The notes under the pieces were generated by a model. That model was given only the letters and a program-made list of their open reading frames with translations, did not search any database and had not been told where the DNA came from. A stretch of 64,000 bases of DNA from a virus, in IMG/VR virus record IMGVR_UViG_3300025096_000006, positions 44,231 to 108,230 of that record; one strand, given 5' to 3'. Positions 540 to 41,606 of this stretch are shown piece after piece. How positions within the stretch are numbered: the stretch's first letter is position 1; each line of letters starts with the position of its first letter. The position numbers and the translations under genes were made by a program.

Positions 540-1055
540 TTATCTTCTTGACATACTCTTGCTATAGCCGCTACGGGCTGGTGCGCCTTCATATCCGCCG
601 GCGCGTTGACCAGATGGGGCAAGATTCCCTATTGCGTCAATCACCAGGGCGACTTTCTTGTCTATCCATTTGGGAGCGGTGACCATTAGATTTCCAATAG
701 TTTGAGTAATTGTGTTGGTGACTCCTTCAGCTTCGAGTGCATCACCTTTACTATCCCAGTAATCCTCAATATCTCCCATATTCATAGCTTGTTTCAGAGC
801 ATGTCCCATATTAGAATCCAGAAGCTCCGCAAAATCCGTTCCTTCTAAAGATGATGGTGTATAATTACCGTCTCTTATATCTGCCATATAGTGCTGAAGA
901 AATTTCATACCATCTCCACCCATCTCAAAATTGGTCCGATCGTCTCCTCTTGGTTTTCCCACCATGGTGCGCATCGTATCCATAAAACCTTCGTCTAGGC
1001 TTTTTTCAATCTCTTCTTTGATGATCTGCTTAAGTTGTTTCTTTGTGATTTTCAC
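540..1055 (-). CDS. KITK-tagged protein A, 171 aa
   Basis: The start is placed at GTG 1053-1055, preceded by AAGGA. A longer upstream reading has no support and would overlap the neighbouring gene. The first 15 residues read (M)KITKKQLKQIIKEE and match the N-terminus of the next gene upstream (1090-1371) except for one position. After this amphipathic, strongly basic helix the body is mixed: Gly-rich around residues 35-50 and a C-terminal tail rich in Gly, Ser and Arg. The function is unknown. The shared peptide followed by unrelated bodies suggests a targeting tag, perhaps for packaging into the head. That role is inference; the coding call is secure. Confidence 0.75.
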   Translation of the reverse strand: MKITKKQLKQIIKEEIEKSLDEGFMDTMRTMVGKPRGDDRTNFEMGGDGMKFLQHYMADIRDGNYTPSSLEGTDFAELLDSNMGHALKQAMNMGDIEDYWDSKGDALEAEGVTNTITQTIGNLMVTAPKWIDKKVALVIDAIGNLAPSGQRAGGYEGAPARSGYSKSMSRR

Positions 1056-1089
1056 TTCATTATTCCTTATGTCGCTAATCCATTCATAC

Positions 1090-1371
1090 TTAGTACTCTT
1101 CTTCTTCTCGATACAGAAGGGGTCCCTGCGGACTAAGCATCGTATCCCAGAATTGAGCCACATCACCGCGGTCTCCCTTGGTGTTAATAGCGTCCACTAT
1201 CATGTCATAAGCTTCTTTGCCTGAGAGCGCACCGGGGCCCATTGAATTCATGATCTCGCTGACTTCCTGCGCCATTTCCATAGCATCGCCACGTTCGCGG
1301 ATGCTTTCAATGCTGTAGGCATCATACTCTTCCTTGATAATCTGTTTAAGTTGTGATTTTGTGATTTTCAT
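1090..1371 (-). CDS. KITK-tagged protein B, 93 aa
   Basis: An ATG start, and an N-terminus MKITKSQLKQIIKEE almost identical to protein A (540-1055). Four of the 15 tag codons differ synonymously between the two genes and only one differs in amino acid (Lys/Ser), leaving aside the GTG/ATG start, so selection appears to hold the peptide. The remaining 78 residues are acidic and helical (AMEMAQEVSEIMNSMG) and end in a cluster of Glu before a C-terminal Tyr. There is no recognisable enzymatic motif. It lies between a hypothetical gene and protein A in the same operon. Confidence 0.75.
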   Translation of the reverse strand: MKITKSQLKQIIKEEYDAYSIESIRERGDAMEMAQEVSEIMNSMGPGALSGKEAYDMIVDAINTKGDRGDVAQFWDTMLSPQGPLLYREEEEY

Positions 1372-1390: not shown

Positions 1391-1801
1391 TTACCTGCGC
1401 TGAGTTTGTCGCACTTGTTTAACTGTGCCGCGTTCATCTTTAGGAACTCTCGGATTAACGAGCGCCACGAGGACTTTTCCCAAGGCGCGCATGTCTACTC
1501 CCATCGAAGTATCCATACCGGCTTTTTTTAAAATCTCGGATGTAACCTGCACGAAGGTGCCACCTTCCAGTTGAGCATTTTGACCAGATGCGTGCTGTAG
1601 AAAAACTTGAAATGGCTTTTGTGCTATGATTAGCTTCTGTACATTTTTAGGAACCATGAGGTTCGCCCGCTCCCCGTCAATAAACCAGACATTATTGGTA
1701 AATTTGGTGTATGCGTCCGCTCGGACCTCATCTAATCTTTCCTGTTTCTCGTCCATAAAATAACGAGGATCAATAAATTTTGTGTTTTTTCTTCTAGCCA
1801 T
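1391..1801 (-). CDS. Conserved-looking phage protein, 136 aa
   Basis: The ATG start is preceded by AAGGAGAACACC, a strong ribosome binding site. The protein begins MARRKNTKFIDPRYFMDEK and has a basic, Gln/Arg-rich tail (VKQVRQTQRR). The middle (LEGGTFVQVTSEILKKAG) is predicted mixed alpha/beta. No family is recognised. It begins 11 bases after the end of the primase and probably belongs to the same transcript. The coding assignment rests on start signal, length and operon position. Confidence 0.7.
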   Translation of the reverse strand: MARRKNTKFIDPRYFMDEKQERLDEVRADAYTKFTNNVWFIDGERANLMVPKNVQKLIIAQKPFQVFLQHASGQNAQLEGGTFVQVTSEILKKAGMDTSMGVDMRALGKVLVALVNPRVPKDERGTVKQVRQTQRR

Positions 1802-15644: not shown

Positions 15645-17164
15645 ATTTCAGGCTCCGTTGCTCTTCCATAAATATCAAAGTAAATAGCCTCTTCTGATTG
15701 AGTTTTGCAATCGAAATCTAAATCAACATAATAGGATTGCTTATTGAATGTTTCTGCGCCTTTACATGCCAATTCATTATCAATTTCATGATCCACCAAT
15801 ATATCAAAATAATATTCGACGCTGGCAGTAGTATAATTTGTCGATGGAATTGTTACTGGCTGATTAGCAACCATATATCCATCTTGAACATTGTTATATT
15901 CTTTTTTGAAATATTTTCTCTTATAGCGAACGTACTCATCCTTACCGCCTGCCCAAGAATCAAGTATCCACGCCGATTCATCATCAACAGTTAAACTAAT
16001 TTCGCCATCATTAGAGCGCTCGCCACAAGTAGCTGAAACCAACACTATACTAAGATCAGATGTTAAGTCATATAAATTTCCTTCCTGCACACCTTCGATA
16101 TCTAATTCAGTTCCAAAGTTATCTATTGCTTCAAGTAAATAAAGCAACAGTTCGGCGCCTCTTGATTGTTCGGTAACTCCAGCAAGCGATTCCTCTTCGG
16201 TATAACTATCCAATAATACCGTTGCGGTTCCGGTGCCGGCACCTCCGTCTGCTATAGTATCTTCTTTTGTGTTTATTACAAAGCCAGATGCAGGACCGCC
16301 AGATGCAGAGTCTTTAATTGTAATAGTTACAGTATAATTATTATGATTAATAGTGAGGATATCGCCGCTTGTGACCCCAGTCCAGCCATGGTTGCCGCCA
16401 AAGTCCTCATAAAGACCAATCCGACCATTGGCCGCAGTGCACGAAGTAACCGTTTCTTTTTGAAACACTTCAATGTCGAAATTTTCTACCAGGAGCGCGG
16501 TATTTACCTCCTCCATGTATATCAAAGCATCGTCAGCCTTTAATCCGACCGTGTGCAAATCGGCAAAAACCCTACTGGAGCCTATTATATCGTTTACAGA
16601 ATCAGGTAGCAGATCCTGATCAAGACGAGCAATTTGTTTTTCATATTCCAAAGTTATATTAATTTGAGGTATGTCCGAAAGGGTTACAGAATCTCTATTC
16701 GCTGATGATGATATTTTATTTTGTAAAGCAACAACCTTCCATGCTGGTGCGTAATTATTTGAATCTGAATCTAAAACCGCATCGCCAATTGACTTTTCAA
16801 ATCTGAACATTTCTGCGCGAGCTATTTGCTGCTGCGGGGTGGCATCAACATATTGAGTTTCGCCAGGATTTTGAATTTGTTCGTCATGGCGCTCAATATC
16901 CGTGAACAAAATTGGGGACTCAAGATATGCAGTGCTCTGCTTAATTCTTTTGTGAATATCATTTTGTGGCTCAGGAAGCGCAGTGGTCTCAACTGTGGTT
17001 CCATGGAGCACATCACCTGTACAGTATCTTTTATCATATAAAATATTATCATCAAAAAATGCATAATAAACAGGCTGCAGCTTTCCAATAGACATTAAAT
17101 ATCTACCATATGTTGTTAACTGGATATCAAAAACTTGCTCTTTTTTGTTTAAAAACTTAGCCAT
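15635..17164 (-). CDS. Virion structural protein, 509 aa
   Basis: The N-terminus MAKFLNKKEQVFDIQLTTYG, followed by IGKLQPVYYAFFDDNILYDK, is a pattern I associate with marine T4-like phage structural proteins (memory, not a search). A middle segment around residues 240-390, Gly-rich with ITIKDSASGG and LLLYLLEAIDNFG, resembles in layout the beta-modules in 3313-5646 and 26792-28915, though more distantly. The C-terminal third (YYVDLDFDCKTQSEEAIYFD) closes the fold. It overlaps the giant protein gene upstream at one base, so it is translationally coupled to it. Confidence 0.68.
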   Translation of the reverse strand: MAKFLNKKEQVFDIQLTTYGRYLMSIGKLQPVYYAFFDDNILYDKRYCTGDVLHGTTVETTALPEPQNDIHKRIKQSTAYLESPILFTDIERHDEQIQNPGETQYVDATPQQQIARAEMFRFEKSIGDAVLDSDSNNYAPAWKVVALQNKISSSANRDSVTLSDIPQINITLEYEKQIARLDQDLLPDSVNDIIGSSRVFADLHTVGLKADDALIYMEEVNTALLVENFDIEVFQKETVTSCTAANGRIGLYEDFGGNHGWTGVTSGDILTINHNNYTVTITIKDSASGGPASGFVINTKEDTIADGGAGTGTATVLLDSYTEEESLAGVTEQSRGAELLLYLLEAIDNFGTELDIEGVQEGNLYDLTSDLSIVLVSATCGERSNDGEISLTVDDESAWILDSWAGGKDEYVRYKRKYFKKEYNNVQDGYMVANQPVTIPSTNYTTASVEYYFDILVDHEIDNELACKGAETFNKQSYYVDLDFDCKTQSEEAIYFDIYGRATEPEICQ

Positions 17165-20100
17165 TAATAACCTTTTCCCTTTCTTTTAGGGCTTCGTTTA
17201 ATTTTGGAGTCCAGGTCTGGAGGGTCACCTGCCAGCCCTTCTACGCGGGAGGCAAAATCATTTTTCTTTTCTTGCCATTCGGTATTGCGCTTAGAACCAA
17301 AACTACTTGGCATCCCATTCGTCAGTTCTTCTACGCGGGAGGCAAAATCTAGATCTGTGATTTCTGCTCTAATGGGACCTGACCCCATTATTGGATTTTT
17401 TTCATCAGCGCCAGAAAAAGTTGGACCTATAAGTTCAACAAGCTCAGGATCTCTATATAAAACTTCTGCATCTACTTTAATCAATTCAACAAAAGACAAG
17501 TAATCATAAGGCCAATTATACATTATCTTATATCCTTCAGAATCCTCGTTAAAAGTAAATAGATCTTTTGTTGATTCCCCAAGCTGTGCGGTGATTAAAT
17601 CAGAATAGTCAACTTGAGATTTCTGCTTGACTTTGAACACCATCCATCGCAGATTTTCACTTTCGCAAAGATCATCTGCAGACAATAACTCGTTAATGTC
17701 CAAAGTGTGGGCAATTGATTGATGCTGGCTTGTTATTTTTTTATAATCTCTAGGTGCTAAATTTTGCCACATGTAAGATAAATCGTCTTTATCAAATTCA
17801 TATTCAAATTCAAAAATATACATAACTAAAGGATCAGTATCTGGATTATTTATAAAATCAAATTGTGGCGGTAAAACATAGCGCTGCATTTTTTGAATCA
17901 TTTTTCTTATAGAAACTCCAGCAGCTGATAATGAGTCACCTAAAGCCGTTCCTGATTGTGCCAGCGCTGCCTCAACTCTTATCTGAGGGATTTCAAAAAA
18001 TCTTTTTCTTGTGGTAGCAAATTCGCCGCACTTGTCTTTCTTTGATACATCTACACTTTCTATAGTATATGGAACTGCCACTATCGCCTCTCTAATAATT
18101 AAACTTTCACGCAATTCTCCCAATCTTTTTGTTGTCTCTTTAGTCTCGAATCCCATTAAATCAGTTAAAGATTGCATTGTTCGGTGAAGTTTTAAGCCAG
18201 TATCGGCTGCATCAGAATTATTATAAACAGTATTATTATTGACAACATCATAATGAAACTTTAATGTTTCAATAGGAATATCTCCAATTTCCATAAAAAT
18301 TCCTGTAGAAGAATCTGTTGGCAGCAATCCAAATTGGTGCCACATTCCGCGCGGGACAGACCCTGACGCAAATATTGGTAGTGTTGGGTCGACAGCTCGA
18401 ACTGTATTGTCCGCAAAATTCATCATTGGAGTTTCAAATTTAGGTTGAATGACCCAGCGCTGTCCTGCGGTTGTATTTTCAATCATTTCTGGGTTGCCTA
18501 GCTCGTCTTTTCTTTGTGTCAATATTCTTTCAACGCCTAATAAGTTTAAGCTAGCGCTAATTTGCATTGCATTGCTGTTAATATTATAGCCAGAATAAGG
18601 ACGTGTTTTACTCTGGGCGTCTGCCGCATATGGAAGCGCGGAAATTAATATTGGTCCGTGAGAGTTTGGAGCTGTTGATGCTGTTATAAATCCGGGATCA
18701 GCTCTCCAATAAACCATATTTATTTCTGATAATATGGTTTCTAGATCGTAGCTTCTTGTGTGAGATGGTCTGAAAACAATATCGCACCATGCCTCACCAT
18801 TGGTATATGGAGGAGTATATGCCCAATTAAATCCATTTATACTGTCCATGGGCGCCGTATTTAACGCATAACTAGTAGCTGCAACGCCTTCTGCAGGTCT
18901 TCCTGAAAACGGAGGACCAAATGCGGTTGGTCTTGAATACATTGTAAAGGTTTCTCTAAATCCGTCTTCATTCTGTCTAGGATCTTGTGGTATTGGAAAC
19001 TCTGCTTTTTGAAAAGCCGAAGCACTATAGAGCTGGGCTCCAAATACCCCATACCCAGTATTATCACCCATACTGCTTGATTCATCTTGATAAGTTCGGG
19101 GTCCGGTGTGACTTCTTCTCAATTTAATTCTCGCGCCGTATACACTTCCCGCTTTAAAATTCAAGTCATCGGTAATTATACCTGATTTTAGTTGCGTATA
19201 ATTTGACTCTTTTAAGAAAAAATTACCAACTTCGCCTAAAAAGTTACTAACCATTAGAGAATATGTCTCATCAGCTGGAGCACCACAAGAAGAAGAGGCA
19301 TATAAAGAAGCTGATAAATGTGGCTCCATGTCAATTGGTCGCACCTTGCTAAGATATTTATCAGGCTTAAGGATTGCCTCAAATGGCACTCTTAAATCAA
19401 AAAGTTCGCCACCTTGATAACCAGTAGCAGCCTTGCGATCAACTTGAAAAGTGCCACTAACTGCTGTTAGCATCCAGTTTCCTGGGGTAGCTCCAGGGTT
19501 ATCTACTCCATAAAAAGAAGCACTTAGTTTAAGAGGATCTGTTATTATAGGATAATCAACGGCTAGTCCCGACTTAATAGAGTTAAAAAGAATTCCTGGC
19601 GAGTATAGCGTCTGCATTAAAGGTCTTAATAGTCCACCATGGCTTTCTACAAGAGTTTTTCCATAATATGGGAAAACATTTGCCCCTATAGCCGAAGCGC
19701 CAACCAAGCCATTGCCGTAAGATTTAGAAAATTGACTTACTATATCTATTGTTCGCTGAGCTGGATAGAAACCTTTGTACGGATTAAATCTTATAGCTGC
19801 ACTAACTGTCAATCTTATTTCATGAGGCTGTAGTAAAGTGTCTTCTTTAATGTTCATAAAGTCGCGTAAGAATTCTGAATTTGAATAATCTTTATAGAAA
19901 GATTGAGTGACGCTAGATATGTTAGTACCGGGAATTTCAAATGTATTTTGCTTTCCTCTATTGTTTAATCCAACTTCAATATAGTCTTGAACATGCTCAC
20001 TTATTCTAAATTCTGGCACAATTACATGATCTTTGAATATTTTATTTAGCTCAAATTTAAAATCGTTGTACTCATCAAACCATGGCTCGGATGACTTAGA

Positions 20101-41061: not shown

Positions 41062-41359
41062 CTATGCGGTCTCCTTCTTCAGTTAGTGAATATATAAATT
41101 CAAATGTGTCCAATTGTTCATTAAAGGATATCGCATGTTGCAATAATGCATTTAAAGTTTCATCGCCATAAAAAGATTCTAATTCATATACAGTCTTTAG
41201 GTGACCAGCAAAAGAATTTATCATATTTTGCAAATCTCCTAACTCCTCTGATACAAATAAAAGACGAGATACTACAGCACGAGCATAAATAAACACTCCA
41301 ATATTGAACAAGATTGAAACAAACAAAATTGCAAACAATATTATTTCAAGTCGATTCAT
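41012..41359 (-). CDS. Small membrane-anchored protein, 115 aa
   Basis: Residues 5-27 (EIILFAILFVSILFNIGVFI) form one clear transmembrane helix. An amphipathic helical domain follows (VVSRLLFVSEELGDLQNMIN), then an acidic tail (EGDRIDDDGEYPEAEEETTS). No family is recognised. It overlaps the zinc-ribbon gene by 14 bases and the sigma gene by 50, so the cluster is coupled. Bitopic small proteins like this are common in phages, with varied or unknown roles. Confidence 0.65.
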   Translation of the reverse strand: MNRLEIILFAILFVSILFNIGVFIYARAVVSRLLFVSEELGDLQNMINSFAGHLKTVYELESFYGDETLNALLQHAISFNEQLDTFEFIYSLTEEGDRIDDDGEYPEAEEETTSP

Positions 41360-41606
41360 CTTCTTTTAAATCCTTTTTAAATTGTTTTAAAATCTCGCGG
41401 TTTTCTTCTATATATTCTTTTGTTAATTCACCTATTTTGTCTTGCTTAATTTCGATGTCGTCTTTTATTATTATAGGCGTTGACAACAACTTTCGCATGC
41501 TCTGAGATGCTCCGCACTCCTGACAATCTACTAGCACCTCATTGATGCTGTGAATTGTTGTAAAGGTGAGAGTGCACTCTTCGCACATATATCTATATCT
41601 AGGCAT
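41346..41606 (-). CDS. FmdB-type zinc-ribbon protein, 86 aa
   Basis: It begins MPRYRYMCEECTLTFTTIHS with CEEC (C8, C11), then DCQECG (C28, C31), the two CxxC knuckles of the FmdB/CxxC_CxxC_SSSS putative regulatory family. The second half is a charged helix (IGELTKEYIEENREILKQFK). Such proteins are frequent in marine T4-like phages near gp55. A role in regulation or protein binding is assumed, not shown. It overlaps both neighbours slightly. Confidence 0.78.
   Translation of the reverse strand: MPRYRYMCEECTLTFTTIHSINEVLVDCQECGASQSMRKLLSTPIIIKDDIEIKQDKIGELTKEYIEENREILKQFKKDLKEDEST

Follow-up and report, generated by a model that had tools for sequence, protein, structure and literature searches.

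The window analysed here, the whole stretch of 64,000 nucleotides, covers positions 44231-108230 of the 108,230-base IMG/VR record IMGVR_UViG_3300025096_000006 (G000); the remainder of the record, outside the window, is represented by loci L006-L008. On the complementary strand of the window, two adjacent genes, 540-1055 and 1090-1371 (Table 1), encode proteins that open with a common peptide, (V/M)KITK(K/S)QLKQIIKEE, named tag A in this work. The earlier note had drawn attention to this sharing, and we found 13 of the 14 residues after the start codon to be identical. With the start codon excluded, the two tags differ by four synonymous codon changes (K5, K9, I11 and K13) and one non-synonymous change (K6/S6), as had been counted before. 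The statement that the bodies behind the tags are unrelated also held, since no homology between them was detectable by iterated HMM search; a faint likeness, GDxxxxxWD, was ruled out as homology in the same way. The body of 540-1055 belongs to no recognised family (no PHROG or Pfam match) and its only close homologue bearing that tag is in locus L043; its AlphaFold model was built from two sequences and was too poor for use (mean pLDDT 37). Homologues of the different body of 1090-1371 were found in L028, L029, L034, L040 and L041. The next gene upstream of the pair in the transcript, 1391-1801, belongs to the same array and begins with another tag, tag C, which is conserved in an alignment with six other tag-C proteins, the bodies being not conserved. 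Between the two focal genes lies a copy of a repeat, which starts where gene 1090-1371 ends in TAC TAA.

Table 1. Tagged genes, tag boundaries and tag exchanges. Plain coordinates refer to the window; other coordinates carry the name of their locus. Arrows mark predicted cuts or junctions after a glutamate.
Feature	Location	Strand	Basis
Tagged protein 1, 171 aa, GTG start, begins VKITKKQLKQIIKEEIEKSLDEG	540..1055	-	translation
Tag A of protein 1, residues 1-16, (V/M)KITKKQLKQIIKEEI	1008..1055	-	profile match, codon comparison
E22 codon of protein 1; predicted prohead-protease cut after it (L20-D21-E22↓G23)	990..992	-	(L/I)-x-E at residues 20-22
Repeat CTAAGTATGAATGGATTAGCGAC between the two focal genes	1071..1093	-	exact match, 0 expected by chance
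Tagged protein 2, 93 aa, ATG start, begins MKITKSQLKQIIKEEYDAYS	1090..1371	-	translation
Tag A of protein 2, residues 1-16, MKITKSQLKQIIKEEY	1324..1371	-	profile match, codon comparison
Tag-C protein, 136 aa, MARRKNTKFIDPRYFMDEKQERLDE↓VRAD...	1391..1801	-	alignment with six other tag-C proteins, class analysis
Tag C of 1391-1801, residues 1-25, ending L-D-E	1727..1801	-	class analysis, alignment
Tag-B bodies with enzyme-like domains	L169:5684-6793, L116:8194-9846, L107:2114-2833, L074:14823-15677		
Tag-D examples in immuto, MENFDLKKFLVENKLTxNSxLLxE	L214: 3180-3728, 17005-18006, 18006-18305		
Swap VLE↓ATDPHDQ (A) vs LSE↓ATDPHDQ (C)	A, gene 41199-41441 of the record; C, L158		
Swap IIE↓GDGQVSN (A) vs LNE↓GDGQVSN (B)			
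Swap INE↓GSVPHSA (A) vs LSE↓AAVPHSA (B)			
Swap IVE↓ELRDYY (A) vs VKE↓ELRDYY (C)			
Swap IKE↓EIAEARLP (A) vs IKE↓EIEEARLP (C)			

Using PHROG profiles, we identified in the record a gp21-like head maturation protease (phrog_207, E 1.7e-54) as well as a portal, a terminase and a gp23-like capsid protein. A candidate for the scaffold lies at 16064-17194 of the record. The closest cultured portals, at about 40% identity, are those of Microcystis phage Mel-JY01 and Flavobacterium phage immuto. The phage belongs to the T4-like periphery, and the label Far-T4 (PMC4360716) may fit it. Five copies of tag A were found in the record by tblastn with a short query, and a profile built from 40 tags gave eight matches, all within 35.6-45.6 kb of the 108-kb record and sharing the strand of terminase, portal and protease. 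With this many copies, chance does not account for the sharing of the tag. The protease gene is adjoined by tagged ORFs in several genomes, and in this record by a large tag-like protein of 762 aa, MDKKTLRRIIEEE. Between two groups of tagged genes lies a gene for a 1038-aa protein starting MKFAHISDTHI (G000:C1:41441-44557), which looks like a nuclease of the Mre11/SbcD type, possibly with a second domain fused to it.

The T4-like viruses that carry tag A are uncultured, mostly marine and form a large group. Each of 24 large records gave 3-12 matches to the profile, the outcome of the search of this genome and its relatives that the earlier note had proposed. The note's statement that similar N-termini occur in other marine phage contigs was confirmed in IMG/VR loci: tag-like N-termini occur in 48 of 80 such loci gathered by terminase. 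At the DNA level, at least 118 stretches of viral contigs match the tag pattern, and no match was found among 84,980 bacterial and archaeal genomes. The profile likewise had no match at E <= 0.01 in T4, RM378, KVP40, P-SSM2 and HTVC008M. Alignment of 150 representatives gave the consensus MKITKxQLKQIIKEELxxxxxE (also MKITKxQLKQIIKEEL..vLxE) with almost nothing conserved beyond it. In the loci sampled from IMG/VR, tag A precedes about 200 body families by blastp with no detectable mutual similarity, although counts of body families come from clustering short proteins by single-linkage blastp and could be overestimates. Between tags on unrelated bodies of the same locus (358 pairs), pS was 0.64 and pN 0.15. 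Synonymous sites are near saturation and yet the peptide is retained; the tag peptide is thus under selection, as the note had supposed from two genes.

Pfam matches are absent in 148 of the 150 tag-A representatives, and PHROG scans gave next to no matches for bodies with this tag. Different tagged bodies are joined to one recurring domain at the C-terminus, EVSSEKQRRWACAQKDKPASERADSLSAAEAEEMC (L084:1923-2351 and many relatives). Tag-like copies also occur inside longer proteins (L054:484-1611, L093:2687-3142 and G000:C1:37705-38805), as if cassettes had been fused into polyproteins with internal protease sites.

The same phages carry two further tags. Tag B, MKxLFENWRKFLNE, was found on 33 families, 78% of which have [LIM]xE where the tag ends; tag C, MAIRKNKKFIDPRYFMDE, was found on 23 families and ends in this motif in 96%. 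Several tag-B bodies match protein kinase, zeta toxin and GNAT acetyltransferase families and, weakly, 2-5A phosphodiesterase-like families (Table 1); such domains suit host-directed effectors, short of proving that role, and the proteins may be regarded as candidate injected effectors. A fourth tag, tag D (MENFDLKKFLVENKLTTNSKLLxE), belongs to a Flavobacterium-phage lineage, where it precedes 60 IMG/VR body families and ends in [LI]xE in 71%. In the cultured phage immuto, whose host is Flavobacterium sp. LMO8, several proteins have a tag-A-like start of the MKKSxL type, MKKSQLRQIIKEAL (among them QQO92093, QQO92094, QQO92108 and QQO92116), and others bear tag D (among them QQO92096, QQO92111 and QQO92112, with a predicted cut at LLKE↓G in QQO92111). 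The four tags, three from the same phages and one from a related lineage, are unrelated to one another and all tend to end in (L/I/M)-x-E. T4 was read as a control: its ipII and ipIII begin MKTYQEFIAE↓A, to which tag B bears a general likeness only.

Where tag A ends was mapped on tags collected with residues 14-22 unconstrained. Glutamate is conserved at position 14 in 98% and at position 15 in 95%, and conservation fades out only after about residue 22-23. The earlier description of a 15-residue tag was therefore right about the shared peptide and wrong about its stop at EE. The motif [LI]xE stands at residues 20-22 in 32% of 204 tag-A families, against about 1% further on; with the strict motif at this place in only a third of families, the others rely on IKE↓E or have no site there, and the L20/E22 pattern could in part reflect a continued amphipathic helix. 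The cut that the note had placed at IKE↓E coincides with a swap boundary in two families, whereas the motif near residues 20-22 is favoured by most swaps and by the pattern of conservation. The residue following IKE is glutamate, as against S, A, N, G, T or V after the corresponding motif in capsid proteins. Both IKE↓E and the site near residue 22 act as boundaries. For 540-1055 the cut is predicted at LDE↓G, after residue 22, so that the putative mature protein would start at G23 (...SLDE↓GFMD). In 1090-1371 no such site lies at residues 20-22, and the candidate cuts fall after E14 (IKE↓E) or E26 (IRE↓R). The L/I-x-E motif of gp21 and the role of capsid-targeting sequences (CTS) are described in PMC9026906, which also mentions redundant propeptide sites in phiKZ.

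Homologous bodies were found to bear different tags, with the homology beginning directly past the glutamate of the protease motif (Table 1); additional, weaker pairs are compatible with a junction after the glutamate. Only 1.5% of body positions are preceded by [LIV]xE. These swap junctions are the strongest evidence that the sequences offer for the tag being a module bounded by the protease site.

A putative protease for this site is encoded alongside the tags. Out of 24 large tag-A records, 18 contain the gp21-like protease; of the other six, four lack a portal and two have their portal less than 2 kb from the record end, so these records are cut at or outside the head module. The protease was also found in all 14 large tag-D records. 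At the position of the gp23 cut (delta), 78 related capsid proteins carry L-(R/K)-E, in one case with one residue of the motif undetermined. In record G001 (IMGVR_UViG_3300036766_002181), protease and portal are each matched in two pieces within single open frames of 579 and 2366 aa (136853-138568 and 140520-142526), which suggests in-frame insertions such as inteins.

Many tagged genes are preceded by a 22-nt element, (C)TAAGTATGAATGGATTAGC(A/G)AC, which often starts in the stop codon of one gene and ends at the start codon of the next. It is present in 91 distinct copies in 2.6 Mb of related loci, where about 1.4 are expected. About half of the copies form the 3' end of a tubulin-like gene, most precede a gene with tag A, B or C, and in L194, L110, L124 and L068 the element divides successive single-gene cassettes. 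The tag occurs without the element, and the element also precedes genes with other tags. In this genome we saw just two copies, and both lie within the region of the array; a role as a general promoter is doubtful on that account. By analogy with the PeSLs of T4-type phages, the repeat is probably a recombination joint aiding the exchange of bodies and tags. The T4 late promoter TATAAATA was found upstream of none of 232 tagged genes, the consensus being that of T4 and perhaps not that of this group. In the cluster of tag genes of this record, outside the window, lies a gene for a Tubulin/FtsZ-like protein (G000:C1:39518-40657, L008:2018-3157; Pfam Tubulin E 2.8e-7, slightly under the gathering score), whose 3' end is the canonical 22-nt repeat.

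In our view the tags are most probably propeptides that target internal head proteins to the capsid and are then cleaved off, the proteins being delivered to the next host. The N-terminal 14-25 residues would bind the internal scaffold (core) of a T4-like prohead, so that the tagged protein is built in; the gp21-like prohead protease would then cut after (L/I/M)-x-E at the tag end and free the body inside the head. The body would be ejected with the DNA and may act at an early stage in the new host, restriction and other defences being possible targets. Capsid targeting had been suggested by the earlier note, and the protease, the capsid motif, the tag ends and the swaps after glutamate all agree with it at the level of sequence. 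A further possibility, which we put forward tentatively and at less than even confidence, is that the three tags A, B and C are addresses served by the same protease, perhaps for different places or stages of the head, and that single-gene cassettes, many bounded by the 22-nt repeat, make up an integron-like array in which the protease site is the joint for new bodies.

Other explanations were weighed against capsid targeting. The tags might be docking peptides that are never cleaved and stay on the mature protein, binding a shared partner such as scaffold, portal, tail, a host factor or an assembly site. A peptide of this kind would likewise be conserved in amino acids and common to unrelated bodies, and a predicted helix would suit binding (the AlphaFold model being no help here), but docking leaves unexplained why four unrelated tags tend to end in the same protease motif and why swap junctions fall directly after the glutamate; we consider it unlikely. 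Equally improbable in our view is a structural role for the tagged proteins in the prohead core, comparable to that of T4 gp67 and gp68, in which they would be consumed in assembly and not delivered. The position of tagged ORFs beside the protease gene in several genomes, the 762-aa tag-like neighbour of the protease in this record and the internal tag-like copies in some longer proteins speak for such a role, whereas core proteins are expected to be conserved among relatives and the tagged bodies are highly variable, nearly all tag-A representatives lack a Pfam match, and some tag-B bodies are enzyme-like. It is highly improbable that the similarity stems from a recent duplication, or from conservation of a signal in the DNA such as a promoter, ribosome-binding site or recombination site, with a functionless peptide; for the tag peptide the codon data refute this. 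The 22-nt element does stand upstream of many tagged genes, but synonymous positions are near saturation with the peptide kept, and tag and element occur apart.

The proposed capsid-targeting propeptides resemble the CTS of T4 IPI, IPII and IPIII, where, as here, a short N-terminal peptide sits on otherwise unrelated small proteins, several per genome. The targets of IPI-III are restriction enzymes. In both cases the peptide ends at the (L/I)-x-E of a gp21-type protease, the head genes are T4-like and the bodies are highly variable; internal proteins of T-even phages are diverse with only the CTS conserved (PMC3012670, PMC12373910). However, the T4 CTS and tag A share no sequence similarity (the tag-A profile had no match in T4), and here three different tags occur in one phage group on many more bodies. 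Packaging, cleavage and injection of the internal proteins are proven in T4, whereas here they are predicted from sequence. For the present the system is best classed as CTS-like and not as a homologue of the T4 CTS, the features recognisable in sequence being shared except for homology of the tag. In phage P1, an N-terminal peptide likewise sends the ejected anti-restriction protein DarB into the head, for which 30 residues suffice, but the Dar proteins have no common N-terminal consensus (PMC9024508), which is the striking feature here. Many different head proteins of the giant phages phiKZ, 201phi2-1 and SPN3US, ejection proteins included, also have propeptides removed by a gp21-like protease at a short E-ending motif, with redundant sites; in phiKZ this motif is S/A-x-E, and the accessible text of the source (PMC9026906) describes no shared tag on unrelated small cassettes. 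With the PeSL cassettes (Arbiol 2010; Comeau 2014, via PMC4503421) the array has in common a repeated element at the junctions of exchanged genes, lying between genes in regions where T4-type phages often exchange them; PeSLs are described there as an early promoter plus a stem-loop, whereas in this array the repeated unit is 22 nt long and the tubulin-like gene ends in its canonical copy.

The literature searched yielded no report of a shared tag in marine phages or of virion proteomics of immuto, and new relative to it are the tags themselves, how many and how diverse they are, the boundaries at which they are swapped and the array with its bounding repeat. Through the tags, hundreds of protein families of abundant marine phages that have no known function can be approached from sequence. 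If capsid targeting is true, the tag predicts location in the head, processing and delivery into the host, and unannotated genes would become a testable list of candidate injected anti-defence or takeover proteins, comparable with T4 IPI-III. Because the cultured Flavobacterium phage immuto has a related tag system, this reading is open to experiment already. Moreover, the tags could serve as new packaging addresses for loading proteins into phage heads.
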